In this document: positions 370-27,218 of the stretch, in pieces
Layout of the letters: each line of letters begins with the position of its first letter
Numbering within the stretch: position 1 is the stretch's first letter
Made by a program: the position numbers and the translations under genes
Notes under the pieces: generated by a model
Seen by the model: only the letters and a program-made list of their open reading frames with translations
The model's database searches: none
Told to the model about the DNA's origin: nothing
Assembly: GCA_018267955.1 (NCBI GenBank)
Contig: JAFDXL010000002.1
Span: 456,941 to 520,940, forward strand
Direction: 5' to 3'
Length of the DNA stretch: 64,000 bases
Source: Bacteroidota bacterium
GTDB taxonomy: Bacteria; Bacteroidota; Bacteroidia; Chitinophagales; Chitinophagaceae

Positions 370-1584
370 TTAGCTTTGGTGCAATATAGCTTCTTTCAGC
401 AGCGGGTGGTTGCTCGGTACCAAAGAAGACTTGGTAAGCATACGCGCCACGCTGAACATCATTACACCTGCAAAGCCTGCAAATATGCCGAGTTCGTACC
501 AGCTCAGGTGCCAGTGTTCTTTCAGCGGGCCAGGCATTGTCATGATGTAGAAATCAAGCCAGTGACCAAATATAATTGTCATTGCCATAAAGCTTACGGT
601 AAAGTAATTACGTTTACTTGGGCGCGACATCAATATCAATATCGGCATACAGAAGTTGATAATGAATGTTGCATACCAGATCATGGCATAAGGGCCATGT
701 TGGCGGATAACGAAATATGTAGTTTCTTCCGGTATGTTACTATACCATATCAGCATGTACTGCGCAAACCAGGTATAGGTCCAGAAGATACTGAATGCGA
801 ACATGAATTTACCAAGATCGTGCACGTGCTCTTTGCTCACTATTTCCATGTGGCCCTGATTCTTCAGGTAAACTACCCACAACAGGATCAGTGACATACC
901 GCTAACGAATGCACTACCGAAAGTGTACCAGCTAAACATAGTAGAATACCAGTGTGCATCGATGCTCATGATCCACATCCACGGAGTAGTACTCATTTGT
1001 GTAAGCGCGTAGATGAACAGGAACGCTGCAGACCATTTGAACATCAGCCAGTAATTTTTGGTGCTGTTTTTAGGAGCTGATTCCTGGGCGATAGATATAG
1101 CGCGGAACTTGCGTCCAACGAATGCCCACAGAGCAATTGTTACTACAGTGAACCCTACAAACATACCCGGATTCAGGAAGGAAGATTTACCTTTCAGTAT
1201 TTCATCATTGCCCGGTGTCACCCAGTGGTAGATAGGATTGTGGCCATCTATTTTGAACCCGAATGCTATCGCAAATAAGATGATGATCGTGATGAGCCCA
1301 AATACCCATACGTTGGCACCAATTGCCTCCGGTACTCTCTTATAAGCTACGATCCACGCACCCTGTGCCAGTGATGCTGCTGCCTGGATAAATATACAAG
1401 CTACGGACATCAGCAGGAAGAATACGCTGTTGTGCAGCAACACGATCCAGAAGCGTGTTTGTTCAAAATGGTCGCTGCTGCCCAGTAGGGTAACACCGCC
1501 AATTACCAGGGCAAGTATGCCGATGATGATCAATGCGAGGCTAGTGTTCCTTAATCGCGCCGGTATCTCAAAACGTTCGTTCAT
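370..1584 (-). CDS. actF: Alternative Complex III membrane subunit ActF
   Basis: A 404-residue polytopic membrane protein with about ten hydrophobic helices, starting MNERFEIPARLRNTS. It is the last gene of actABCDEF. ActF is an integral subunit of the quinol:cytochrome c oxidoreductase that replaces the bc1 complex in many Bacteroidota, and is a distant relative of the NrfD/PsrC-like ActC. It is assigned by position, length and membrane profile. ATG start at 1584, 50 bases after actE. Confidence 0.88.
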   Translation of the reverse strand: MNERFEIPARLRNTSLALIIIGILALVIGGVTLLGSSDHFEQTRFWIVLLHNSVFFLLMSVACIFIQAAASLAQGAWIVAYKRVPEAIGANVWVFGLITIIILFAIAFGFKIDGHNPIYHWVTPGNDEILKGKSSFLNPGMFVGFTVVTIALWAFVGRKFRAISIAQESAPKNSTKNYWLMFKWSAAFLFIYALTQMSTTPWMWIMSIDAHWYSTMFSWYTFGSAFVSGMSLILLWVVYLKNQGHMEIVSKEHVHDLGKFMFAFSIFWTYTWFAQYMLIWYSNIPEETTYFVIRQHGPYAMIWYATFIINFCMPILILMSRPSKRNYFTVSFMAMTIIFGHWLDFYIMTMPGPLKEHWHLSWYELGIFAGFAGVMMFSVARMLTKSSLVPSNHPLLKEAILHQS

Positions 1585-1634
1585 TTTTTAAACCTTATTA
1601 GAAGTACGTTTATAATTTTCTTCTGTTGTCAATT

Positions 1635-2300
1635 TTATTTCTTGCCTTCAGCTTTTGTATCAGCCTTAGGTTCTGTAGCCATAGCTACAACTTTAGCACT
1701 ATCTGTTGCAGCGGCGCCAAATGCAAATGCATCGCCACCATTGGCAGATTGTACTTTTTTGATGTAAGCGATCACCATCCAGCGTTGTTTTGTATCCAGC
1801 TGGCTGGCGTAAGAACCCATCATGTTCTTACCGTATTTAACCGCTGCATACATCTGGCCTACCGGCATATGCAGGTATTTACCATCTTTAAAGTTGGCAG
1901 GCATTGCCGCAAACTTACCGCTTGCATACAATGGACCCTGTCCATCCAGATTGGTACCATGGCATATACCGCAGTAGATATTAAACAGGCGCTTGCCTTC
2001 ATCCAGCTGTGCATCTGTAAAACGCAGAGATGTAGTGTACGTTTTATAAGCATTGGTATCGCCTTCCACCAGGTGGTCGGGCAATTCGTGGCCCATAGCT
2101 ATCGTACCGGCTACCGGCGGACGGCTTGTTTGGCTATCTGCAAAGTTGGGGTTAGCCGTGTATGCATCGTAAGCACGTGAGTAGACCATGTCCGGGGCGT
2201 ATGTTTTACCAGGGTTGCGACGGATGCTACCACTGTTACATGCCGTAAGTCCCAGTCCAGCCACCAGGCCCGCTACTACTATGCTTTTGGTTTTATTCAT
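1635..2300 (-). CDS. actE: Alternative Complex III monoheme cytochrome c lipoprotein ActE
   Basis: A 221-residue lipoprotein. The signal peptide ends in the lipobox LTAC with the lipidated cysteine at residue 21. One heme c site, CGICH, is at residues 110-114, followed by a Met-rich stretch (VGQMYAAVKYGKNMMGSY) that probably supplies the distal ligand. ActE is the single-heme electron exit subunit of the complex on the periplasmic face. The C-terminus is Ala/Lys-rich and low complexity. It lies between actD and actF. Confidence 0.92.
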   Translation of the reverse strand: MNKTKSIVVAGLVAGLGLTACNSGSIRRNPGKTYAPDMVYSRAYDAYTANPNFADSQTSRPPVAGTIAMGHELPDHLVEGDTNAYKTYTTSLRFTDAQLDEGKRLFNIYCGICHGTNLDGQGPLYASGKFAAMPANFKDGKYLHMPVGQMYAAVKYGKNMMGSYASQLDTKQRWMVIAYIKKVQSANGGDAFAFGAAATDSAKVVAMATEPKADTKAEGKK

Positions 2301-2391
2301 AAATTATTTAAAATTCAAAGTCAAGATTCAAAAAATTCAACCCTCCGGATCCTGCGCTTCTTTATTTTTTTACCTATTAACTATTATTCCG

Positions 2392-2976
2392 TTAGCCGTT
2401 TACCGTTGTATATTTCTCGTAAGGCTCTTCTTTATCGAAACGTCCGTACCACCATTCAGATTCAGCTATTTGTACTGAAGTTTCTACAGCGCCTGTTGTC
2501 TTCAGGAAATTGATGGCTTCCTGTTCGTTTGCATCGCTGATCTCCAGTGCCACTACAAACAAATCGTCAGACTGGCGTGGGTGGAAAACGTGTTTCTTAA
2601 CGCCCGGCATGATCTGGTTGAGGTAGCAGAACGTAAGCACCATACCTACTGCAGCAAACAACACTGTAAGCTCGAAAGTGATAGGTATGAACGCTGGCAA
2701 GGACCAGTGCGGCTTACCACCGAAATTGATAGGCCAGTCGCTGGTAAATATCCAGGACATAAACCCTACTGCAGTAGCGGTACCGGTGATACCATATATG
2801 AAACCTGCTACGTGAAGATCTGTTTCTTTAAGGCCCAGCGCATGGTCTAAACCGTGCACAGGGAACGGTGTATATACATCGTGCAGCTTAAAACCACTGT
2901 GACGTACCTTCTTCACCGCAGGAAACAGCACTTCCTCATCATTATAACAAGCAACTGCAAATTTCTTTATAGCCAT
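2392..2976 (-). CDS. actD: Alternative Complex III subunit ActD (DUF3341)
   Basis: 194 residues with two membrane helices (about 57-80 and 96-122) and soluble ends, the usual form of the DUF3341 subunit ActD. It has no cofactor motif. ActD packs against ActC in known structures. It starts MAIKKFAVACYNDEEVL, 44 bases downstream of actC, and is followed by actE. Confidence 0.9.
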   Translation of the reverse strand: MAIKKFAVACYNDEEVLFPAVKKVRHSGFKLHDVYTPFPVHGLDHALGLKETDLHVAGFIYGITGTATAVGFMSWIFTSDWPINFGGKPHWSLPAFIPITFELTVLFAAVGMVLTFCYLNQIMPGVKKHVFHPRQSDDLFVVALEISDANEQEAINFLKTTGAVETSVQIAESEWWYGRFDKEEPYEKYTTVNG

Positions 2977-3020
2977 TTTAATTTTTATTCAAAAAGTTAA
3001 AAGTCAAATTTCAAAATCTA

Positions 3021-4457
3021 CTAATGGTGCGCGTGCTCCAGTTCGTGTTTAAACTCTTCTGTGCTCTTAGCATCAATCGGCGCCATATCTTTCTTAAAGC
3101 TTTCACCTGATGTCTTCAATATAAACTTGATCTCAGCAATTGCTATCACAGGGAAATATTTAGCGAAGAGGAAGAAGCATGTAAAGAACAGGCCGAATGT
3201 ACCTACATAGAAGCCCATTTCTGTCCAGGTTGGGCTATAGTAAGTCCAGCTGCCCGGCAGATAGTCGCGGTACAGAGAAGTAACGATGATAACGAAACGC
3301 TCGAACCACATACCAATGTTCACCACGATAGACATTACGAAAGTGAATGGGATGTTACGACGCAGTTTCTTGAACCAGAACAACTGCGGAGATACCACGT
3401 TACAGGTCATCATTGCCCAGTAGCTCCACCAGTAAGGGCCCATGATACGCCATTTAAACGCATCCTGTTCGTACACCACCTGGCTATACCATGCCATGAA
3501 CAATTCTGTTAAGTATGCCACACCCACGATAGAACCGGTAAGTACAATTACCTTGTTCATAGCCTCGAGGTGACCTACAGTAATATAATCTTCAAGGCCC
3601 ATGATCTTACGGCAAACGATCAACAGCGTGTTCACCATTGCGAAGCCGGAGAAGATGGCACCCGCAACGAAGTATGGCGGGAAGATGGTAGTATGCCAAC
3701 CCGGGATAACCGAAGTAGCAAAGTCAAAAGATACGATCGTGTGTACAGAAAGTACCAGTGGTGTGCTTAAACCTGCAAGTACCAGTGATAATGCTTCGTG
3801 ACGTTGCCAGTTTTTAGCAGTACCTGTCCATCCGAAAGATGCCAGGCCATACAGGCGTTTGCGCAATTTTGTTTTAGCGCGGTCGCGGATGGTAGCAAAG
3901 TCAGGAACAAGGCCTGAATACCAGAATAATAAAGATACCGTGAAGTAAGTAGAGATCGCGAACACGTCCCACATCAGGGCCGAGTTGAAGTTTGGCCACA
4001 GCGGACCGCGGCTGTTGGGGTAAGGCAGTACGAAGAAGGCATCCCATACACGACCCATGTGGAAGATAGGGAACTGACCCGCGCACATTACCGCGAAGAT
4101 GGTCATCGCCTCAGCAGCACGGTTTACACCGGTACGCCAGCCCTGGCGGAAGAGTAAAAGGATAGCGGAGATAAGCGTACCGGCGTGACCGATACCCACC
4201 CACCATACGAAGTTGGTGATATCCCATCCCCAACCTACTGTACGGTTGATACCCCATACACCGATACCATAGTAAACTTCCCAAAACACCGAGAACACAC
4301 CCCAACCCAGCAGTAATACCGAGAAGAAGAAACCTACATACCACATACGGCCCGGTTTCTGCTCAATAGGGCGAACAATGTCTTCCGTAACCTGGTGATA
4401 ATTTTTCTCACCATCTACCAGCGGTTCCCGTACAAACGATTCGTACTTTAAATGCAT
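3021..4457 (-). CDS. actC: Alternative Complex III quinol-binding membrane subunit ActC (NrfD family)
   Basis: 478 residues with about ten hydrophobic helices, similar to the NrfD/PsrC family that carries the quinol site of the complex. Family-typical stretches include GWDITNFVWWVGIGHAGT and the histidine-rich end ELEHAHH. It follows actB by 93 bases. ActC is thought to oxidise menaquinol and pass electrons to the Fe-S clusters of ActB and then to the hemes of ActA and ActE. Confidence 0.93.
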   Translation of the reverse strand: MHLKYESFVREPLVDGEKNYHQVTEDIVRPIEQKPGRMWYVGFFFSVLLLGWGVFSVFWEVYYGIGVWGINRTVGWGWDITNFVWWVGIGHAGTLISAILLLFRQGWRTGVNRAAEAMTIFAVMCAGQFPIFHMGRVWDAFFVLPYPNSRGPLWPNFNSALMWDVFAISTYFTVSLLFWYSGLVPDFATIRDRAKTKLRKRLYGLASFGWTGTAKNWQRHEALSLVLAGLSTPLVLSVHTIVSFDFATSVIPGWHTTIFPPYFVAGAIFSGFAMVNTLLIVCRKIMGLEDYITVGHLEAMNKVIVLTGSIVGVAYLTELFMAWYSQVVYEQDAFKWRIMGPYWWSYWAMMTCNVVSPQLFWFKKLRRNIPFTFVMSIVVNIGMWFERFVIIVTSLYRDYLPGSWTYYSPTWTEMGFYVGTFGLFFTCFFLFAKYFPVIAIAEIKFILKTSGESFKKDMAPIDAKSTEEFKHELEHAHH

Positions 4458-4550
4458 AGCACTTTATTAGTAAAGTTCTTATTAATTGTTTCGGATTGCG
4501 GTATTACCCGCGCCCCATTTATTTTTCTATTACACCTTCAGGCAGCGCCT

Positions 4551-7500
4551 TTAGATGTGTTCTTTCATCATCCAGTCTGTTGCTTCGTTACCACCTACTA
4601 TCTTATCTGTGTTACGGATCTTAGACAGGTAGTTAACGTTTGGCAATGTGTGTATTTGTTCCAGTACGTAGAACACGCGTTCCTTGTTGTTCTTACGTAT
4701 CTGCGCTACCGCACTTTCAGGATCGTTTACGTTACCGAATACGATACAATCAGAAGCACAAGCCTGCTGACAAGCGGTCTTAGCTTCGCCATCCTTCATA
4801 GGGCGGCCGTCTTTTTTCGCAGTCAGTTTAGCATCCTGCAGACGTTGTACGCAGAAGCTACATTTTTCCATCACACCACGGCTACGAACGGTAACATCAG
4901 GGTTCAGCACCATGCGTGTCAGGTCGTCGTTCATACCATCGCGGCGGTAATCTTCGTACAGGTTGTCATCAAAGCAGTCAGCACCATTCCAGTCGAGCCA
5001 GTTGAAGTGACGTACTTTATAAGGACAGTTGTTAGCGCAATATTTAGTACCGATACAACGGTTATAAGCCATTTGGTTGAGGCCTTCAGAGCTGTGGTTG
5101 GTAGCAGACACCGGGCAAACGTTTTCGCAAGGAGCGTTATCGCAGTGCTGGCACATCATTGGCTGGAAGATAGTCTGGATAGTATCCGGCTCATCTGGGT
5201 TACCGCTAAAGTAACGATCGATGCGGATCCAGTGCATATCGTGCGACCTCATTACTTCCCTTTTACCAACAACAGATACGTTGTTTTCTGCCATACAACC
5301 TACCACGCAGGCACCGCAACCGGTACATGCAGTAAGATCGATAGACATACCCCAGTGGATACCCGGAGAAACGTATTCAGGATACAGTGTAGCATTCTTA
5401 CGGAAGCCTTCCTCATCCAGAAGCACGGCAGCACCTGCAGCAGCAGCCTTTTCAGGCTCTGTGTGCATGCTTTCTTCGTTAGCTTCTTCGCCCCATGGCT
5501 GATGGGTAAATGGACCTATTTCTTCTTTACGCTCTTCCAGCAGTTCGTTTGGATTCTTAGCAAACTCTTCGAGTGTAAATTCGTGAACAACCGCGCGGCC
5601 TTCATAGCTCATGTGTGTCTGAGTGATGGCCAGGTCGTAAGTCTTATCAGTTTTTTCGATGGTTACAGGAGCATGATAGCTAACCGTTTGGCCTACCATG
5701 TGCGTAAGCGGATAAACGTTTTTACCACCTATTTCGTTGCCCCATTTGTCGGTACCGCTTTTTGCAGCCATACCTACTTTAGCATCACGGCCATAACCTA
5801 CCGCTATTGCTACCACATCGTTATGCATACCGGGAACAGCTATTAGCGGAAGCAATACTTCCTGTCCGTTCACTTTCAGTTTGATAACGCGTTTAGCGGT
5901 ATCTACTTCTGTGATGCTGGTAAGCTCATTGCCCAGTTCTTTTGCTTTTTTAGGAGATACGCAAGCGTAGTTGTCCCAGGTAACTTTCGTCATTGGGTCA
6001 GGCATCTCGTGCAGCCATGGGTTGTTACTCCACATACCACCGTGGCCTATTGAGATCTTCTCGTATATCACCACTTCCATGCCATCTGTAGGCTTGGTAG
6101 GGATAGCAGAGATCGCTGTGCCTATATTACCGGCAAATGTAGCGCCGCCTGTTGGCATATCGCCGGCGGGTTCTACGATACCGTCCTGTAATGCTTTATC
6201 AAAATTGCTTTCGCCGCCCAGTTTGCTTGTCCAGTATTGCTTCCACATATCACCATAGGTGGTAGTAGCACCGGCCCACATCAACAGGCTATCCTGGTAT
6301 GCACGTGTTTTGAACAGCGGAGCGATACCCGGTTGCATCAGGCTGTAATAGCCTGTTTTAGGTTCTGCATCACCCCAACTTTCCAGGTAGTGATGGTTAG
6401 GAACCACGAACTTGCACTGCTGTGCAGTTTCGTCCATACGGTCTGCGAAAGATACCGTTACAGGAACTTTCTTCAGGCCTTCGGCAAATTTCTTGCCGTT
6501 GTACAGTTCATATACAGGGTTTACACCGTGTATCAGTACCGCACCTACCTGGCCATTGCTCATAGCCTCTGTAAGAGCAGCTACATCTGCATCTATACCT
6601 GCCCTGTAATTGCTGTTTACCGCCCAGTTGATCGTAGTGCCATTAGCACCGATCGCACTGTTGATAGCGTTAATTACAGTCTGAACATTTACATCGTTGC
6701 TGCCGCATACTACCATACCGTTGCCTTTCTTCAGATCAGCAGCAGCTTTGGTAACTAGTTCGTTCAGGCCCTTGGTGCTCAGTGAAGGAGCCGCGCCTGT
6801 AGTAACGGCATTATACAGCGCTACCGCTACCGCGCCCATTTCGCTAGGCTTGCAGGTAGCACGAACGTCTGCGCTGGCACCTGTAGTGGTATGGTGACCT
6901 TCTACATGGTAGTGGCGAGACATTTTAAGGTTCTTTGCAGTAACCTTACGTGTAGCAGCATATTGTTTAGAGAATTCTACCGGTGATAACCAGGTGCCGA
7001 GGAAATCTGCACCAAGACTTACGATAGTATCTGCTTTATCAAAATGATAAGAAGGCAGCGCACGTTTTCCGTAGCTGGCTTCGTTTGCCAATAACATACC
7101 ACTGTAAGAAACCGGATCGTAGATCACATGCTTAGCAGTAGGATATTTGGCGAGGAATTGATTGATAACTTCTTTTGTAGTAGGGCTAAGGATCGTTGAG
7201 GTAAGCAGGTAGATTGGTTGTGACGCGCTTGCCAAACCATCCTTCACCTGGCGATCGATAGCATCGAAAGTAGCCTCCTGTCCATCAACCATCGGCTGAC
7301 GCAGGCGGGCCTTATCGTACAGGCTCAGTACAGATGCCTGCACACGTGCCGATGTAGAACCTTTTGTTATAGAAGAAAGCGTGTTACCTTCTACTTTTAT
7401 CGGGCGGCCATCGCGTGTTTTGATAACAATAGCGCAATAATCGCCACCATCTACGAATGTAGAAGCGTAGTAGTTAGGAACACCCGGTACTATATCTTCC

Positions 7501-7739
7501 GGTTTTATTGCGTAAGGGATCACCCTGCGCACAGGCATTTCGCAACTTGCAGCCAAAGTAGCAGCAACGGTGCTGAAACCTAAGAATTTCAAAAAGTCGC
7601 GGCGGGGTGTAGTAGCATTCAGCAGGTTGTCGCTCATTTCAAACGGCAACGGCTCGCTAAACTCATTTGCTGCTACCTCTTGATGAGCTTCCGTATTGTT
7701 CAGCTCTTCGAGGCCCTTCCAATATTTTTTTTGACTCAT
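4551..7739 (-). CDS. actB: Alternative Complex III Fe-S/molybdopterin-like fusion subunit ActB
   Basis: 1062 residues. The N-terminus carries a Tat-like motif RRDFLKF (residues 46-52), then a hydrophobic segment ending LAASC, which looks like a lipobox at Cys66. The middle 650 residues resemble a molybdopterin oxidoreductase, a domain known to lack the cofactor in ActB. The C-terminal 270 residues are ferredoxin-like with four cysteine groups, including CTGCGACVVGC, CQHCDNAPCENVC and CIGTKYCANNCP. This matches the 3Fe-4S/4Fe-4S wiring of ActB. The fusion of the two domains is normal for the family. Confidence 0.95.
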   Translation of the reverse strand: MSQKKYWKGLEELNNTEAHQEVAANEFSEPLPFEMSDNLLNATTPRRDFLKFLGFSTVAATLAASCEMPVRRVIPYAIKPEDIVPGVPNYYASTFVDGGDYCAIVIKTRDGRPIKVEGNTLSSITKGSTSARVQASVLSLYDKARLRQPMVDGQEATFDAIDRQVKDGLASASQPIYLLTSTILSPTTKEVINQFLAKYPTAKHVIYDPVSYSGMLLANEASYGKRALPSYHFDKADTIVSLGADFLGTWLSPVEFSKQYAATRKVTAKNLKMSRHYHVEGHHTTTGASADVRATCKPSEMGAVAVALYNAVTTGAAPSLSTKGLNELVTKAAADLKKGNGMVVCGSNDVNVQTVINAINSAIGANGTTINWAVNSNYRAGIDADVAALTEAMSNGQVGAVLIHGVNPVYELYNGKKFAEGLKKVPVTVSFADRMDETAQQCKFVVPNHHYLESWGDAEPKTGYYSLMQPGIAPLFKTRAYQDSLLMWAGATTTYGDMWKQYWTSKLGGESNFDKALQDGIVEPAGDMPTGGATFAGNIGTAISAIPTKPTDGMEVVIYEKISIGHGGMWSNNPWLHEMPDPMTKVTWDNYACVSPKKAKELGNELTSITEVDTAKRVIKLKVNGQEVLLPLIAVPGMHNDVVAIAVGYGRDAKVGMAAKSGTDKWGNEIGGKNVYPLTHMVGQTVSYHAPVTIEKTDKTYDLAITQTHMSYEGRAVVHEFTLEEFAKNPNELLEERKEEIGPFTHQPWGEEANEESMHTEPEKAAAAGAAVLLDEEGFRKNATLYPEYVSPGIHWGMSIDLTACTGCGACVVGCMAENNVSVVGKREVMRSHDMHWIRIDRYFSGNPDEPDTIQTIFQPMMCQHCDNAPCENVCPVSATNHSSEGLNQMAYNRCIGTKYCANNCPYKVRHFNWLDWNGADCFDDNLYEDYRRDGMNDDLTRMVLNPDVTVRSRGVMEKCSFCVQRLQDAKLTAKKDGRPMKDGEAKTACQQACASDCIVFGNVNDPESAVAQIRKNNKERVFYVLEQIHTLPNVNYLSKIRNTDKIVGGNEATDWMMKEHI

Positions 7740-7812
7740 ATGGTTCGATCCGGTATAAATATTGTTTCCGAATATATTTTAAATGTATTTGATCAATATC
7801 TGTTTATCCAGA

Positions 7813-9081
7813 TTAGTAGTGACATTTTTGGCATTCTGTACCGCCGATGTCTTCTACTGTAACGCCTGTGCGTTTACCTGACTTCAACTCTTCGTGATAT
7901 TTTTCAAATATTGAATAATAGTTGTTGTTTGTGAACTGTACCTGTGTTTGGCGGTGACAGTTGATACACCAGCCCATAGACAGCGGAGCGAACTGATAAA
8001 CCTCGTCCATATCCTGGATCGGGCCGTGGCAACGCTGACACTGTACTTTGCCCACCAGCACGTGCTGAGAGTGGTTGAAGTAAACGTGGTCAGGCAAGTT
8101 GTGGATCTTCACCCATTTAACAGGTGTAGCCTTGATATTGCCTTTCTCGTCGCGGATGTATTCTTTCTTAACAGGATCCCAGCCGGCATATTTATACAGC
8201 TTTTGGATCTCTGCAGTACCATCTATCTTTTTACCTTCTGCAGTTACCAGCGGATGCTCTTCGTTGCCGGTGTATTCATTGATCTGTTTGTGGCAGTTCA
8301 TACAAATATTGGTAGAAGGCACCATTGCGTGGCGGCTCTTTTCAGCGCCTGCGTGGCAATACAAACAGTTGAGCTGGTTGATGCCCACGTGTACTTTGTG
8401 CGAATAGTAAATTGGTTGTAATGGCTGATAGTTTTGCTGGCGGCCCATTTCAATAGCGCCATTAGTGATCCAGTAACCTGCGAAGATGAATACCAGGATC
8501 ACCGTTATTGCGATCACAACTTTATTGCGATAGAAAGGAATTTCTTTAACGTTAGGAACGCCATCTTTTTCGTTAGCTACGCGTTTTAGGCCGCTGTTTA
8601 CACGCCACAGGATGAAGGCAAGGGTCAGCAGTATTACTGTAACCAGTGCATAGATCCAGTTGCCTGTAGAGCTGGTACCTTCTGGTTGCTCTGTTGCAGC
8701 GCCGGTACCTGCAGCAGGCCCTTTACTTGGCGGTTCTACAGAGTTTACATAAGTAACCACAGCATCGATCTCCTCGTCTGACAGACTAGGGAAAGACGTC
8801 ATCACTGTTGGCTTCCACTTATCGAATAGTTTTTGCGCGTACGCATCCTTAGCGATCATCGCAGAAGGATTGTGTACCCAGTTGTGCAACCATTCTTTGC
8901 TTGGCACACGTCCGTCCACGCCTTTCAGCGCAGGGCCGGTAGCATCTTTTAACGGGTTGTGGCAGCTCGCACAATTGGATTGGAATATGGCCTTACCGTC
9001 TGGCGCGGCTACGGCAGAGATGTTGCTAACGAATACGGTAAATACCAATGCAGTGAAGCATTGAACAATTTTCCGGAACAT
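7813..9081 (-). CDS. actA: Alternative Complex III multiheme cytochrome c subunit ActA, with an extra N-terminal heme domain
   Basis: The chosen start at 9081 (MFRKIVQCFTALVF) gives a normal signal peptide; the frame stays open 105 bases further upstream. The 422-residue product has six CxxCH heme motifs: CASCH (37-41) in an N-terminal monoheme cytochrome c domain, then two membrane helices (about 140-160 and 190-212), then CLYCH, CMNCH, CQRCH, CINCH and a last CQKCH at the extreme C-terminus. The last five form the classic pentaheme ActA domain. The N-terminal domain is an additional fused cytochrome c. It is the first gene of the act operon. Confidence 0.93.
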   Translation of the reverse strand: MFRKIVQCFTALVFTVFVSNISAVAAPDGKAIFQSNCASCHNPLKDATGPALKGVDGRVPSKEWLHNWVHNPSAMIAKDAYAQKLFDKWKPTVMTSFPSLSDEEIDAVVTYVNSVEPPSKGPAAGTGAATEQPEGTSSTGNWIYALVTVILLTLAFILWRVNSGLKRVANEKDGVPNVKEIPFYRNKVVIAITVILVFIFAGYWITNGAIEMGRQQNYQPLQPIYYSHKVHVGINQLNCLYCHAGAEKSRHAMVPSTNICMNCHKQINEYTGNEEHPLVTAEGKKIDGTAEIQKLYKYAGWDPVKKEYIRDEKGNIKATPVKWVKIHNLPDHVYFNHSQHVLVGKVQCQRCHGPIQDMDEVYQFAPLSMGWCINCHRQTQVQFTNNNYYSIFEKYHEELKSGKRTGVTVEDIGGTECQKCHY

Positions 9082-22083: not shown

Positions 22084-22311
22084 TTATCGCCTTTTCATTT
22101 GAAAGAAGGCGTTGAAAATATGTGGTGGTAGTTCATCCCGAACATCGCGGATGCGGTGATGTTTTAACCATACAAGAAAATCATCCGGGTTGTCCGGCTC
22201 GTGCCGGATGACCTGACCATTTTTTAGAGAGATGATGAAGATGCCAACGGAATAGATATAGGCGGAGAGTTCGGGGGCTTTGTATTCAAAGCCGTCAAAA
22301 TTATACGTCAT
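22084..22311 (-). CDS. Small unknown protein, C-box-associated
   Basis: 75 residues from ATG 22311 (MTYNFDGFEYKAPELSAYIY). I do not recognise the family. It has a KNGQVIRHEPDN beta-hairpin-like centre and a basic end MKRR. A copy of the 35-bp C-box (22347-22381) lies 36 bases upstream of its start, so it is probably controlled by the XRE protein encoded at 22743. It lies 57 bases after the stop of the 100-residue unknown gene on the same strand. Confidence 0.65.
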   Translation of the reverse strand: MTYNFDGFEYKAPELSAYIYSVGIFIISLKNGQVIRHEPDNPDDFLVWLKHHRIRDVRDELPPHIFNAFFQMKRR

Positions 22312-22346
22312 GGTTTGGTGATTTAGGAAATGAAAGTAAGAAAAAT

Positions 22347-22381
22347 ATGACACTTATAGTCCGGTAACTTATAAGCCACAT
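22347..22381. promoter_or_regulatory. C-box operator, copy A
   Basis: A 35-bp element with two related cores, ACTTATAGTCC and ACTTATAAGCC, 15 bp apart. It is 31/35 identical to copy B at 22690-22724. The GACTnnnAGTC-like symmetry and the spacing match published restriction-modification controller (C-protein) operators such as that of Esp1396I, as I recall them. It lies upstream of the gene at 22084-22311 and overlaps the last bases of the gene at 22369. Confidence 0.75.
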
Positions 22382-22671
22382 TTTATTTTTTGTAAGAATG
22401 CGCTAATATCCATTTCCGTTGCTGGTTCATCTGTTGGAAATATTCCTATATACTCGTGAAATAGGTGATCTAATTCATCATCCCAAGCAAAATAGTGTAG
22501 GTCTTTTAATCCCCATTCTGCAGGGTAAAACCATTCATTATCGATGAGCTGCTTCCGTATCTGTTCGTCAACTTTTGCAAGGTCCATTGCCGACGGATTG
22601 CTAAATATTACTTCTCCAAACTGCTTGTAGTTGGCTCCATCCCTGTATAAGTATTCAAACCTGATATTCAT
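22369..22671 (-). CDS. Small unknown acidic protein, divergent from the controller gene
   Basis: 100 residues from ATG 22671 (MNIRFEYLYRDGANYKQFG); the open frame upstream would run through the C-box. It is rich in acidic and aromatic residues (WFYPAEWGLKDLHYFAWDDELDHLFHEY). No methyltransferase motifs are present and I do not recognise the family. C-box B lies 18 bases upstream of its start, between it and the divergent controller gene. Confidence 0.7.
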   Translation of the reverse strand: MNIRFEYLYRDGANYKQFGEVIFSNPSAMDLAKVDEQIRKQLIDNEWFYPAEWGLKDLHYFAWDDELDHLFHEYIGIFPTDEPATEMDISAFLQKIKCGL

Positions 22672-22689
22672 TGTGTCAAATATAACATT

Positions 22690-22724
22690 ATGACACTTAA
22701 AGTCCGTTGACTTAAAAGCCACAT
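22690..22724. promoter_or_regulatory. C-box operator, copy B, between divergent genes
   Basis: A 35-bp element with cores ACTTAAAGTCC and ACTTAAAAGCC at 15-bp spacing. It is centred in the 71-base gap between the divergent starts at 22671 and 22743, 18 bases from each. This is where a C protein would autoregulate its gene and control the opposite one. Confidence 0.8.
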
Positions 22725-22742
22725 GCCAATACTTTGTGCTAG

Positions 22743-22964
22743 ATGGATATTAAGGATAAAGTAGGCCAGCGCATTAAAGAATTGAGACATGAATTGGGCA
22801 TATCCCAAGAAGCACTCGGCAACAAAGCCGGTGTAGACCGAACCTATGTAACCGATGTAGAAAACGGCAGAAGAAATGTATCTGTAGAGATACTGAAAAA
22901 ACTCGTTGCCGCCCTCGAAGTATCCATCCAAGAATTTTTCACCGCTAAAGAGTTTAAAAAATAA
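22743..22964 (+). CDS. XRE-type controller (C) protein
   Basis: 73 residues, a single helix-turn-helix domain: GQRIKELRHELGISQEALGNK followed by the recognition helix region AGVDRTYVTDVENGRRN and a dimer helix EILKKLVAALEVS. Its size and the DRTY..D.E...RN pattern match the C proteins of type II restriction-modification systems. It has a C-box directly upstream and the nuclease gene 3 bases downstream, the usual C-R order. C proteins act as dimers that first activate and then repress, delaying nuclease production after entry into a cell. Confidence 0.85.
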   Translation: MDIKDKVGQRIKELRHELGISQEALGNKAGVDRTYVTDVENGRRNVSVEILKKLVAALEVSIQEFFTAKEFKK

Positions 22965-22967
22965 TCT

Positions 22968-23981
22968 ATGCTACCTAAACTATTACCAAATCAAAAAGTA
23001 TTTGTTGAAATCACTAATCCAGTACATGGCGGGGAGGGATGGAAATTCGGGACATGTTTATGGAGCCCACAGAAAGATAACGGGGGTGCTGCAGCCTGGA
23101 AACTAATGGAAGAGATAAATCCCGGAGATATTATCATACATTTTTTAAAACTAAGAATAAGAGAATATTTCCTCTATGGGTTTTCAATAGCCGACAGCAA
23201 ACTAATTAAAACTAACGATAGACCGCCGAATCCAGGTAAGTGGGATAAAGGACCATACCAAAGGATTAATCTTGGAGAATTTAAAGAATTAAATACTCCC
23301 GTTTCCGTCAAAGAAATCTTTGATGCACATCGTAAAGAACTGATTAAAATATTAGATGTTGTAGAGCAACGTCAATTTTATGTTCTAGATAAAAACGATC
23401 TTCTAAAAATGCAGCAAGCTTATATTGTTGCTTGCGAAAACTCTTTATATGTCTTACTAAATAAATACTTTGCAGCAAATGAGACGGGCGCTCAAGAAGT
23501 AGATGTTATTTACAAAGTAAAAGCGGACAATAAAATTGTTGTAGAAGAAACTGAAGAGACTGAAAATGAGCCAACTCCTTCTGATATAGCTCCACCAGGT
23601 AAAAAAGATGCAAAAGTATCAAGGTTTATACGTGATACAAAACTTTCCAGAACCTTAAAGAAAAAACACCAGTGGAAGTGTCAAGTATGCGGGGAACACA
23701 TACTACTTCCCAGTAAAAATCTATACGCAGAAGGGCATCATATACAACCATTAGGTAATAAGCATAATGGATTAGATGTAAAAGGAAATATCCTTATTGT
23801 TTGTCCTAATCACCACGCGGAGTTCGATTATGGTTCGATAGCAATAAATCCAGGAACAATGAAGATTGAGCACGTTGATGAAACAAACCGATGGCATGGC
23901 AAAAAACTTGCTTATAATAGAGCAGATATAGACAAAATGTTTTTAGAATATCATTATGAGATGATCTTTAAAAAACTATAA
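22968..23981 (+). CDS. HNH endonuclease with N-terminal PUA/EVE-like domain (probable modification-dependent restriction enzyme)
   Basis: 337 residues. Residues about 10-118 look like a PUA/EVE-superfamily reader: CLWSPQKDNGGAAAWKLM, PGDIIIHF, then YFLYGFS, with Trp/Tyr at 25, 32, 44, 92 and 97 that could line a base pocket. A helical segment (120-170) and an acidic linker follow. The HNH nuclease is at 235-290: CQVC (238-241), EGHHIQPL (His257-His258), NILIVCPNHH. The coding sequence is visibly AT-rich relative to flanking genes. No methyltransferase is adjacent. PUA/SRA/EVE-HNH fusions are known type IV enzymes that cut modified DNA, so that is the preferred reading. Confidence 0.85.
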   Translation: MLPKLLPNQKVFVEITNPVHGGEGWKFGTCLWSPQKDNGGAAAWKLMEEINPGDIIIHFLKLRIREYFLYGFSIADSKLIKTNDRPPNPGKWDKGPYQRINLGEFKELNTPVSVKEIFDAHRKELIKILDVVEQRQFYVLDKNDLLKMQQAYIVACENSLYVLLNKYFAANETGAQEVDVIYKVKADNKIVVEETEETENEPTPSDIAPPGKKDAKVSRFIRDTKLSRTLKKKHQWKCQVCGEHILLPSKNLYAEGHHIQPLGNKHNGLDVKGNILIVCPNHHAEFDYGSIAINPGTMKIEHVDETNRWHGKKLAYNRADIDKMFLEYHYEMIFKKL

Positions 23982-23997
23982 CCCTAGTGTGTTTATT

Positions 23998-24597
23998 ATG
24001 ACAAAATCGAATGATAAAATACGACGAGTCTTTTACCACGAATTAGGCCATTTTGTTGCAGGCATTTTAAACAACAAGCTATGCGGTGAACCTAAGCCGG
24101 TAAAATTCTATATTGAATACAATACACAAAGGGATGATTATACTGGTGGTGTAACTTCTAATAAAAATATTAGCCCAGGAGCACTTCCTATAGGCTGCCT
24201 TTCTAAGCAATTAGTGTCTTTAGTATATGGATGTATGTTTCAATTCTACTTACTCGATATATCGTACAAAGAGATAGATAATTGCTTTAATGGTGGCAAT
24301 GGAAAATATGATGCTGATCATTATAAATCATTTGCAACAGCTCATATATCAACAATGCAACTTATTCAACTTAGAGAAGTACAGGATAAATACTTTGAAA
24401 AAATATTCAATGAAAAATTGCTTGAAGAGTTTCGCATTAATCATGACAAATACTTAGTGCAAGAAGGAGAAAACTATACCATTGATATTAAAGAACTAGA
24501 AAAAGATCTTCAGGATAGCATAGAAAAGCATTTAAATGTTTATAAAGGTTTTGTCACTGACCAACAAGACCTAATAAATAGTTTGGTAAAAAAATAA
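23998..24597 (+). CDS. Minimal HExxH metallopeptidase (FtsH/M41-like)
   Basis: 199 residues from ATG 23998; a GTG at 23989 is the alternative. It begins with the zinc motif HELGH at residues 14-18, then an M41-like stretch KPVKFYIEYN...YTGGVTSN, and a possible third ligand Asp in NGKYDADHYK (about 100). It has no AAA domain and no membrane helix, so it is a lone peptidase domain plus a helical tail. ImmA/M78 peptidases also carry HELGH, but the sequence after the motif fits M41 better. It is 16 bases after the HNH gene and probably in the same operon. Confidence 0.7.
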   Translation: MTKSNDKIRRVFYHELGHFVAGILNNKLCGEPKPVKFYIEYNTQRDDYTGGVTSNKNISPGALPIGCLSKQLVSLVYGCMFQFYLLDISYKEIDNCFNGGNGKYDADHYKSFATAHISTMQLIQLREVQDKYFEKIFNEKLLEEFRINHDKYLVQEGENYTIDIKELEKDLQDSIEKHLNVYKGFVTDQQDLINSLVKK

Positions 24598-26599: not shown

Positions 26600-26890
26600 A
26601 TGGCATTTCGTCAGGAAATATTGAGCACACTAAAACAGGCAAAAAATGTTTTGTCGGACCGGTATGGAATACAGGCCCTGGCATTGTTTGGCTCGTATAG
26701 CCGTGAAGATGCAAATACAGATAGCGATGTAGACATCCTGGTAGAACTAAAGAACCCAATAGGTATCAGGTTTATTGACCTTGCAGACGAACTGGAAACA
26801 TTGCTACACAGAAAGGTGGATCTGGTTTCCCGAAAAGGTATCAAGCCAAAATATTTCGCATCTATAGAGCCGGATCTGATTTATGTCTAA
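26600..26890 (+). CDS. mntA: MntA-type nucleotidyltransferase antitoxin
   Basis: 96 residues of the minimal nucleotidyltransferase fold. The motif GSYSREDANTDSDVDILVE (about 31-49) contains the GSx10DxD catalytic signature. MntA proteins add AMP groups to the HepT partner and neutralise it. Its end overlaps the hepT start by 8 bases, which indicates translational coupling. It may serve as an anti-phage or plasmid-stability module. Confidence 0.9.
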   Translation: MAFRQEILSTLKQAKNVLSDRYGIQALALFGSYSREDANTDSDVDILVELKNPIGIRFIDLADELETLLHRKVDLVSRKGIKPKYFASIEPDLIYV

Positions 26891-27218
26891 ACGGGATACA
26901 TTATTACTTCTGGAAGATATACTGGCGGCTGCAGGTAAGATATTGACTTACACTATAGGTATGTCTTACGATGATTTTATTTCAGACGATAAAACCATTG
27001 ATGCAGTAGTTCGTAATTTTGAAATAATCGGCGAAGCTGCCAATCGTGTACCGGAAGACTACAAATTAGAACATCCAGAAATAGAATGGCGTCGGATGAT
27101 TGGCCTCCGCAACCGTATTATACATGAATATTTTGGAATAGATTACGAAATAGTGTGGCAGATTATACAGGAAAACATTCCGGAATTGCAGGAACGCGTT
27201 CAGCAAACCCTCAAATAA
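26883..27218 (+). CDS. hepT: HepT-like RNase toxin
   Basis: 111 residues, all-helical HEPN fold. The catalytic RX4-6H motif with the modified tyrosine is present as RNRIIHEYF (about 77-85), so the toxin appears intact. It pairs with the overlapping mntA. HepT toxins are RNases, held inactive by AMPylation of the tyrosine in this motif. Confidence 0.9.
   Translation: MSKRDTLLLLEDILAAAGKILTYTIGMSYDDFISDDKTIDAVVRNFEIIGEAANRVPEDYKLEHPEIEWRRMIGLRNRIIHEYFGIDYEIVWQIIQENIPELQERVQQTLK

Follow-up and report, generated by a model that had tools for sequence, protein, structure and literature searches.

Gene content and operators of the locus

This analysis concerns a controller-regulated gene cluster in a 64,000-nucleotide stretch of a Bacteroidota bacterium (assembly GCA_018267955.1, contig JAFDXL010000002.1, positions 456,941 to 520,940; hereafter the window, in whose coordinates positions are given), taken from a host genome of 4.18 Mb that is 98% complete. 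Five genes occupy 22084-24597: a controller (C) gene, an HNH nuclease gene and a gene for a protein with an HExxH motif on the forward strand, and two short genes on the reverse strand. The features that bear most on its interpretation are:

22743..22964, + strand: C-type controller, XRE/HTH_3, 73 amino acids (aa); 61 bits against Pfam HTH_3; C.BclI and C.AhdI as PDB relatives
22968..23981, + strand: predicted EVE-HNH nuclease, 337 aa; EVE/PUA domain at about residues 11-165, HNH at about 217-300
22369..22671, - strand: conserved divergent partner, 100 aa, acidic (isoelectric point, pI, 4.5); no family in four profile libraries; 10-sequence alignment
22690..22724, + strand: C-box operator 2 (O_L + O_R), in the gap that separates the C gene from the divergent small gene; supported by matrix scores, near-constant in 5/5 cassettes
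22347..22381, + strand: C-box operator 1, partly inside the 3' end of the 100-aa gene, upstream of a 75-aa gene; supported by pattern and matrix scores

The controller has the size (70-80 aa) and HTH_3 fold of known C proteins. Its best solved relatives in a PDB search were C.BclI (expectation value, E, 1.5e-13) and C.AhdI (2.4e-12), the PADLOC model Control_protein matched it at 8.3e-18, and a tandem C-box operator lies upstream of its own gene. In a mapping of our own, three of four contact residues of C.Esp1396I (T36, Y37 and R46) have identical counterparts here in T34, Y35 and R44, and S52 is replaced by Ile. The nuclease ATG (22968) follows the C stop codon by 3 bases. A Pfam scan found no methyltransferase family in any of the five products, and for three of them (P0002, P0004 and P0005) no Pfam match was obtained up to E 1. 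Thus, four elements of a preliminary description of this DNA, namely a 73-residue XRE protein with C-protein features, a 35-bp operator directly upstream of it, an HNH nuclease 3 bases downstream and the lack of a methyltransferase among the five products, were borne out by these profile matches and by the operator scores given below.

Scored with a matrix built solely from the operators of four relatives, the sites at 22690-22724 and 22347-22381 reached 58.1 and 44.5 bits; with the window's own copy included they reached 60.5 and 45.5 bits, the third-best site in the window scoring -1.4. A 30-base operator pattern allowing up to 3 mismatches occurred at just these two sites in the 4.18-Mb genome, the reversed control pattern had zero sites there, and a degenerate version had no match in viral contigs. 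The earlier assignment of the operator to both reverse-strand genes was confirmed as to the two sites, with the correction that the ATG starts of these genes (22671 and 22311) lie downstream of the operators.

The right half of operator 2 covers a TTG (22707-22709) placed 20 bases ahead of TACTTTG (22730-22736), a pair which we take to resemble the -33/-7 promoter pattern of Bacteroidota. On the side of the 100-aa gene, a -7-like TATATTTG is found at 22677-22684 (- strand), just outside the left C-box; by eye, a TAnnTTTG-like element directly borders the left C-box here and, in less perfect form, in the relatives.

Related cassettes and exchange of the effector

The 288 genomes of the bacterial family were searched with the two small proteins fused into one query, a census of small genes and not of the family's C proteins, from which one weak match spanning the query join was dropped (G102, E 0.0016). 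Cassettes of the same plan were found in four further genomes (G218, G266, G221 and G094), making five with the window. Their C proteins are 73-79% identical to that of the window and their small proteins 44-51%, and between the divergent small gene and the controller each has an operator with 0-2 mismatches in 30 bases, the only copy seen in these four loci. The operator block is near-constant across 5/5 cassettes and its flanks diverge; its C side retains TTG-N20-TACyTTGT. In a controller tree of 73 columns the cassette group had a support of 23/0, values that cannot show one origin.

The effector encoded behind this same controller changes from cassette to cassette: an EVE-HNH protein in the window, a 238-aa SRA-HNH protein in G221 (HNH 30.6 bits; SAD_SRA 27.8 bits, below its cut-off of 30.7), and SLFN-g3 helicase proteins of 663-680 aa in the other three. 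The latter correspond to the PADLOC candidate PDC-S41, with 813 bits in locus L075 (G218) and 829 bits in L079, while L076 was assigned through its 66% identity to L075 and not by a scan. A module of C gene, operator and small gene is therefore reused with unrelated effectors.

In G221, a congener, the cassette stands upstream of a set of SUI1, transketolase-like and LEA genes that also lies downstream of the cassette in the window: the C and small genes are kept and the nuclease is exchanged. Between cassette and SUI1 there is a 147-aa gene in G221, and a MASE11-PAS histidine kinase plus a nucleotidyltransferase/HepT pair in the window. Other genes stand upstream of SUI1-transketolase-LEA in G094, G169 and G265; the G094 cassette sits elsewhere, and neither G169 nor G265 yielded a small gene in the family search. 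The pair in the window (26600-27218) consists of a nucleotidyltransferase (PF01909, 51.8 bits) and a HepT-like HEPN protein (PF01934, 112.6 bits), likely of toxin-antitoxin type; a similar pair was seen by eye near another small-protein locus (L082).

The nuclease resembles modification-dependent EVE-HNH enzymes

The C-terminal half of the nuclease carries the HNH catalytic domain (HNH_2, 34.2 bits, cut-off 21), closest to that of TagI (1.3e-17). The N-terminal half had no Pfam match, yet a six-sequence profile matched VcaM4I at 2.4e-8 over the whole chain, made up of two weak pieces (E 0.007 and 0.04). The AlphaFold model of 22968-23981 had a mean predicted local distance difference test (pLDDT) of 61 and a predicted template-modelling score (pTM) of 0.50, with blocks of 67-92 up to residue 130. 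Fold comparison, which had been suggested for this region, returned an EVE-type N-terminal domain: the best Foldseek match in the PDB was VcaM4I (7.6e-8, probability 1.00), followed by MJECL36, THYN1 with 5-methylcytosine (m5C) DNA and other EVE proteins (target template-modelling, TM, scores 0.56-0.69), and by the McrB N-domain. In addition, W22-S23-P24 of VcaM4I, of which P24 lines the base pocket according to the available part of its description, aligns with W32-S33-P34 of the nuclease, a stretch invariant in six proteins. Together, the fold and profile matches support an EVE sensor domain of the PUA superfamily. As to the proposal that the N-terminal domain reads modified bases, its EVE/PUA character was upheld, and we infer the dependence on modification from the likeness to VcaM4I. 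The nuclease thus probably belongs with the EVE-HNH modification-dependent (type IV-like) enzymes, with a predicted preference for modified DNA.

A search of genome contigs and viral contigs with the single nuclease sequence P0001 gave no relative, and a two-sequence alignment did recover relatives where P0001 alone had failed; the N-domain was present in 6/395 phylum genomes, the window's own included. In two loci (L041 and L042) it heads an AAA protein (AAA at or just below cut-off) that is followed by a DUF2357-PDDEXK_7 (McrC-like) protein, an arrangement which we read as similar to McrBC-type systems.

Eight EVE-HNH relatives were inspected in regions of 8-14 kb (L039, L040, L043, L044 and L051-L054). 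Six of them had no methyltransferase nearby, L040 and L054 being the exceptions (with directly adjacent genes alone considered, seven of the eight lack one), and no open reading frame (ORF) like this controller was found around the eight at E 1e-6, L040 having a different XRE gene. The L040 row (667-7956) comprises XRE, C5-methyltransferase, ParB-like and helicase-like (by eye), uncharacterised and EVE-HNH genes, possibly a larger system that both methylates DNA and reads modified DNA. L044 (5850-6809, contig C8) is a second EVE-HNH gene of the source genome, encoding 319 aa with an HNH_2 match of 26 bits and standing alone.

The divergent 100-aa protein accompanies diverse effectors

The 100-aa protein was found in 10/288 family genomes, the window counted, and in nine others among 390 phylum genomes (E 1e-10). 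The five family loci outside the cassettes (L077 and L080-L083) have neither controller nor operator, and the phylum loci likewise lack this controller and operator. Its pI was 4.4-5.1 in all eight proteins measured. It showed no fold match in the PDB (best E 0.41; model pLDDT of 79 from two sequences), and no relative was found in the phage collection.

Genomic context was compared over 20 loci (the window, nine of the family, nine of the phylum and one viral contig, with the fragment L146 and the plasmid locus L168 excluded). In 20/20 the small gene is adjacent to, or one gene from, nuclease- or helicase-type genes: one EVE-HNH, one SRA-HNH, four SLFN-g3, two PLD-ResIII helicases, 11 HNH proteins beginning with a WT[RK][DE] motif, and one NO-VEIN protein. 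The PLD-ResIII loci are L131 and L077, the latter with an intervening Nudix-like gene and 698 bits on a PADLOC type IV model. HNH partners with WT[RK][DE] were called by family profiles in L080 and L083 and through their shared N-terminal sequence in the others, the gene in L082 being split over two frames. In L145 a protein with a NO-VEIN C-terminal domain stands behind a UvrD-PDDEXK helicase. In 14/15 non-cassette loci the small gene either overlaps its neighbour or is a same-strand gene no more than about 110 bases away. The small protein matches no family in four libraries and turns up beside nuclease or helicase effectors of at least five kinds, which makes it a candidate for regulating stand-alone restriction nucleases.

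Methyltransferases in and around the cassettes

Methyltransferases were searched with a profile of eight C5-methyltransferases and with single sequences of four N6/N4 types. The 64-kb window yielded none, nor did the stretches of 11-18 kb that surround the four related cassettes, nor the 15 small-protein loci outside the cassettes. When 14 additional genes next to the four cassettes were scanned with Pfam, no methyltransferase emerged either, the sole notable match being an HpaII-like ORF in G218. The positive controls of the search were largely the profiles' own source sequences; the independent ones amounted to two C5 genes (L142), one N6 gene (L141) and a D12 cross-match of just 8e-9. A 130-aa ORF with an SPPY motif, 1.4 kb beyond the effector in L167, was set aside as it had no Pfam family.

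Controllers more distant in sequence (43-53% identity) behaved differently. Beyond the window, 20 were found in the 390 phylum genomes and 11 of their loci were fetched, all of which (11/11) hold a methyltransferase within about 3 kb according to Pfam: C5 in L134-L139 and L144, N6_N4 in L140, D12 in L141 and L143, and N6_Mtase in L142. L134-L138 and L144 were ruled out as methyltransferase-free C systems by these C5 matches. An operator-like site precedes three of the distant controllers (L139, L140 and L142). The contrast between 0/5 cassettes and 11/11 distant loci (Fisher's test, p = 2.3e-4) is overstated by this p value, because the five cassettes are relatives of one another and the two sets were collected by different routes, the cassettes by way of the small gene and the distant loci by way of C. 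In sum, the pairing of nuclease and methyltransferase that defines type II systems was found in 0/5 cassettes, and the failure to find a cognate methyltransferase in the window or around the four related cassettes is as expected of type IV-like systems.

At genome scale, the source has one C5-methyltransferase gene (PF00145, covering half the profile) about 255 kb away, with no operator copy; no PF01555 gene was found, other amino-methyltransferase families not having been searched genome-wide. This solitary gene (L164 5399-6448, contig C3) lies beside ArdC-like and primase-like genes, identified by eye. The host may thus carry m5C, which would be visible to an EVE reader.

A proposed C-dosed defence cassette and its alternatives

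We read the locus as a methyltransferase-free defence cassette in which an EVE-HNH effector is dosed by a C circuit and the small protein takes the methyltransferase's place, and give this reading a probability of roughly 0.7. It builds on gene order, homology, operator conservation, the exchange of effectors and the failure to find a methyltransferase nearby. As in VcaM4I, the EVE domain would flip out and read a modified base, probably a cytosine, in incoming DNA, which the HNH domain would then cut. C proteins activate from O_L and repress once O_R is also filled, as described in the available parts of PMC8053105 and PMC4041747. Here, at low C, a dimer on the left C-box would activate the C-nuclease promoter; at higher C, occupation of the right C-box, which covers the -33-like element, by another dimer would shut it. 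The nuclease, unsafe in abundance, would thereby be kept to a self-limiting dose. The promoter-like element of the 100-aa gene abuts the left C-box, so that this protein would be expected to be made first upon entry and to be repressed by C afterwards. Most likely it restrains or assists the nuclease, perhaps as an early brake, a step that is a guess with moderate support.

C proteins are usually accounted for by the requirement that methylation precede cleavage. For a type IV enzyme no such protection is needed, and the switch therefore most plausibly limits dose. According to the accessible text of PMC7897488, the EVE-HNH enzyme TspA15I cuts any DNA at high concentration and the isolated HNH domain of VcaM4I is toxic. 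The preliminary description had instead tentatively linked delayed expression to a host carrying some of the target modification; this is possible, given the one C5-methyltransferase gene, but in view of TspA15I dose control is simpler.

Several points weigh against this reading. The model of the nuclease is moderate and its superposition on VcaM4I is poor overall (TM 0.32-0.37 over two domains, root-mean-square deviation of about 20), and the profile match to VcaM4I consists of the two weak pieces mentioned above. One EVE-HNH relative (L040) shares its cluster with a C5-methyltransferase, and a weak methyltransferase match lies 2.9 kb from another (L054, viral contig, 47% identical overall). 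Single-sequence searches may miss distant amino-methyltransferases. All cassettes belong to one bacterial family, three of them to one genus, and the G221 contig ends at the small gene, where the view stops. Beside the G218 cassette lies a 206-aa HpaII-like ORF (L075 3004-3624; PF09561, 78 bits, profile 202-328 of 359) that overlaps the end of the small gene and is possibly a type II remnant. Finally, an Erythrobacter plasmid carries a relative of the small protein (35%, 3e-5) immediately behind a cytosine methyltransferase, so that the small protein is not confined to methyltransferase-free loci; the plasmid row (L168 3703-7212, NZ_CP031358.1) continues with two uncharacterised genes and a restriction endonuclease.

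Nuclease and small protein might instead form a toxin-antitoxin-like pair, in which an abortive-infection nuclease is held by the small protein and freed on infection, C serving to balance the two and modification reading being secondary. The constant company of nuclease- or helicase-type genes (20/20 loci), the tight same-strand spacing outside the cassettes (14/15) and the acidity of the protein (8/8) fit such a pair. Nevertheless, the partners have unrelated folds (HNH, PLD-helicase, SLFN-g3), for all of which a single direct inhibitor would be unusual, and the small protein has no fold match; we regard this explanation as doubtful, though worth keeping in mind.

A decayed type II system, in which a methyltransferase once in the divergent position was lost and C is a relic, appears improbable. 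The 11 inspected outside relatives of C within about 3 kb of methyltransferases, the HpaII-like ORF in G218 and the plasmid relative of the small protein speak for it; but five cassettes with three unrelated effectors have kept operator, C and small gene intact with no methyltransferase found, and two of the effector types bear EVE or SRA domains, known from modification readers that need none. The failure to find a methyltransferase near the five cassettes thus disfavours decay, in agreement with the type IV-like assignment proposed earlier.

A wider form of the C-dosed reading, in which C circuits have become detached from methylation and C, operator and an acidic 100-aa antidote, produced early in the methyltransferase's stead, act as a general safety switch for exchanged methyltransferase-free nucleases, is advanced only tentatively. 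If a conserved C circuit lacks a methyltransferase, the switch would serve another purpose, probably dose control, and such cassettes would offer a direct test of that idea.

The HExxH protein and the 75-aa gene

23998..24597, + strand: HExxH protein, 199 aa, 16 bases after the nuclease; 'M41-like' not supported
22084..22311, - strand: 75-aa protein, preceded by an operator here; family with many copies in the bacterial family

The first ATG of the HExxH gene is at 23998, the listed ORF starting at a GTG (23989). The protein had no peptidase match in Pfam, NCBIfam or PHROG and its best PDB profile match had E 0.38, so that of the 'M41-like peptidase' first described only the HExxH motif, kept in 5/5 aligned relatives, stands. 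Four other full-length relatives were found in the 288 family genomes, with five weak or split rows (in G086, G197, G052 and G193) left out of the counts, and 326 phylum genomes gave no match beyond the window at E 1e-4. Nor did the neighbourhood search bear out a conserved trio of C, HNH and HExxH genes: the HExxH gene is absent from the four other cassettes (0/4) and its relatives lie elsewhere. One of them closes a row of an AAA/McrB-like protein, McrC (PF10117, 211 bits) and a DUF559 gene (L047 6498-11673), and by eye the remaining three are apart from defence genes; the family may be an accessory that moves among type IV systems. A role as effector or activator of a new, proteolysis-triggered system, for which its place 16 bases from the nuclease, the McrBC-type operon and the invariant motif might be cited, is very improbable in view of its absence from the four cassettes, the three relatives apart from defence genes and the negative phylum search. 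As a core part it was dropped, its relatives occurring solely in unrelated places, and it is probably a co-transcribed accessory and not a conserved part.

Both small proteins had been proposed as new system parts. The product of 22369-22671 is indeed conserved, while that of 22084-22311 belongs to a common family (10 and 12 matches in two genomes of the bacterial family) with no shared neighbour in the loci displayed.

Comparison with known systems

In the open-licence literature, which includes few subscription papers or preprints and so leaves prior notice possible, the available text (PMC7641849, PMC12707154, PMC11090510, PMC8281217 and PMC3874152) contained no C-controlled type IV nuclease; C proteins appear there with type II systems and one type I system. 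SRA-HNH nucleases and the PADLOC candidate PDC-S41 (SLFN-g3 helicase), which take the effector position after the same C and operator in the related cassettes, were not linked to a C protein in the accessible parts of that literature.

With VcaM4I and TspA15I the locus shares an N-terminal EVE sensor, a C-terminal HNH domain, the lack of a cognate methyltransferase and the W-S-P pocket stretch. Unlike these enzymes, its HNH domain is nearest to TagI and it has a C protein ahead and a divergent 100-aa gene, neither of which is mentioned in the available portion of PMC7897488, where the word 'controller' is absent. The 35-bp O_L+O_R operator is similar in sequence to that of Esp1396I (PMC3758141, seen in excerpt), and 3/4 of the compared DNA-contact residues of C are common to both; unlike here, the Esp1396I system has a convergent M gene with its own O_M site (excerpts of PMC4041747). 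The layout follows that of PvuII-like systems, in which, in the available text of PMC3850674, C shares an operon with the nuclease and is preceded by tandem C-boxes, and the methyltransferase gene diverges on the opposite side. In the window, by contrast, the divergent gene encodes a 100-aa protein of no known family and not a methyltransferase, and the nuclease is a predicted reader of modified DNA.

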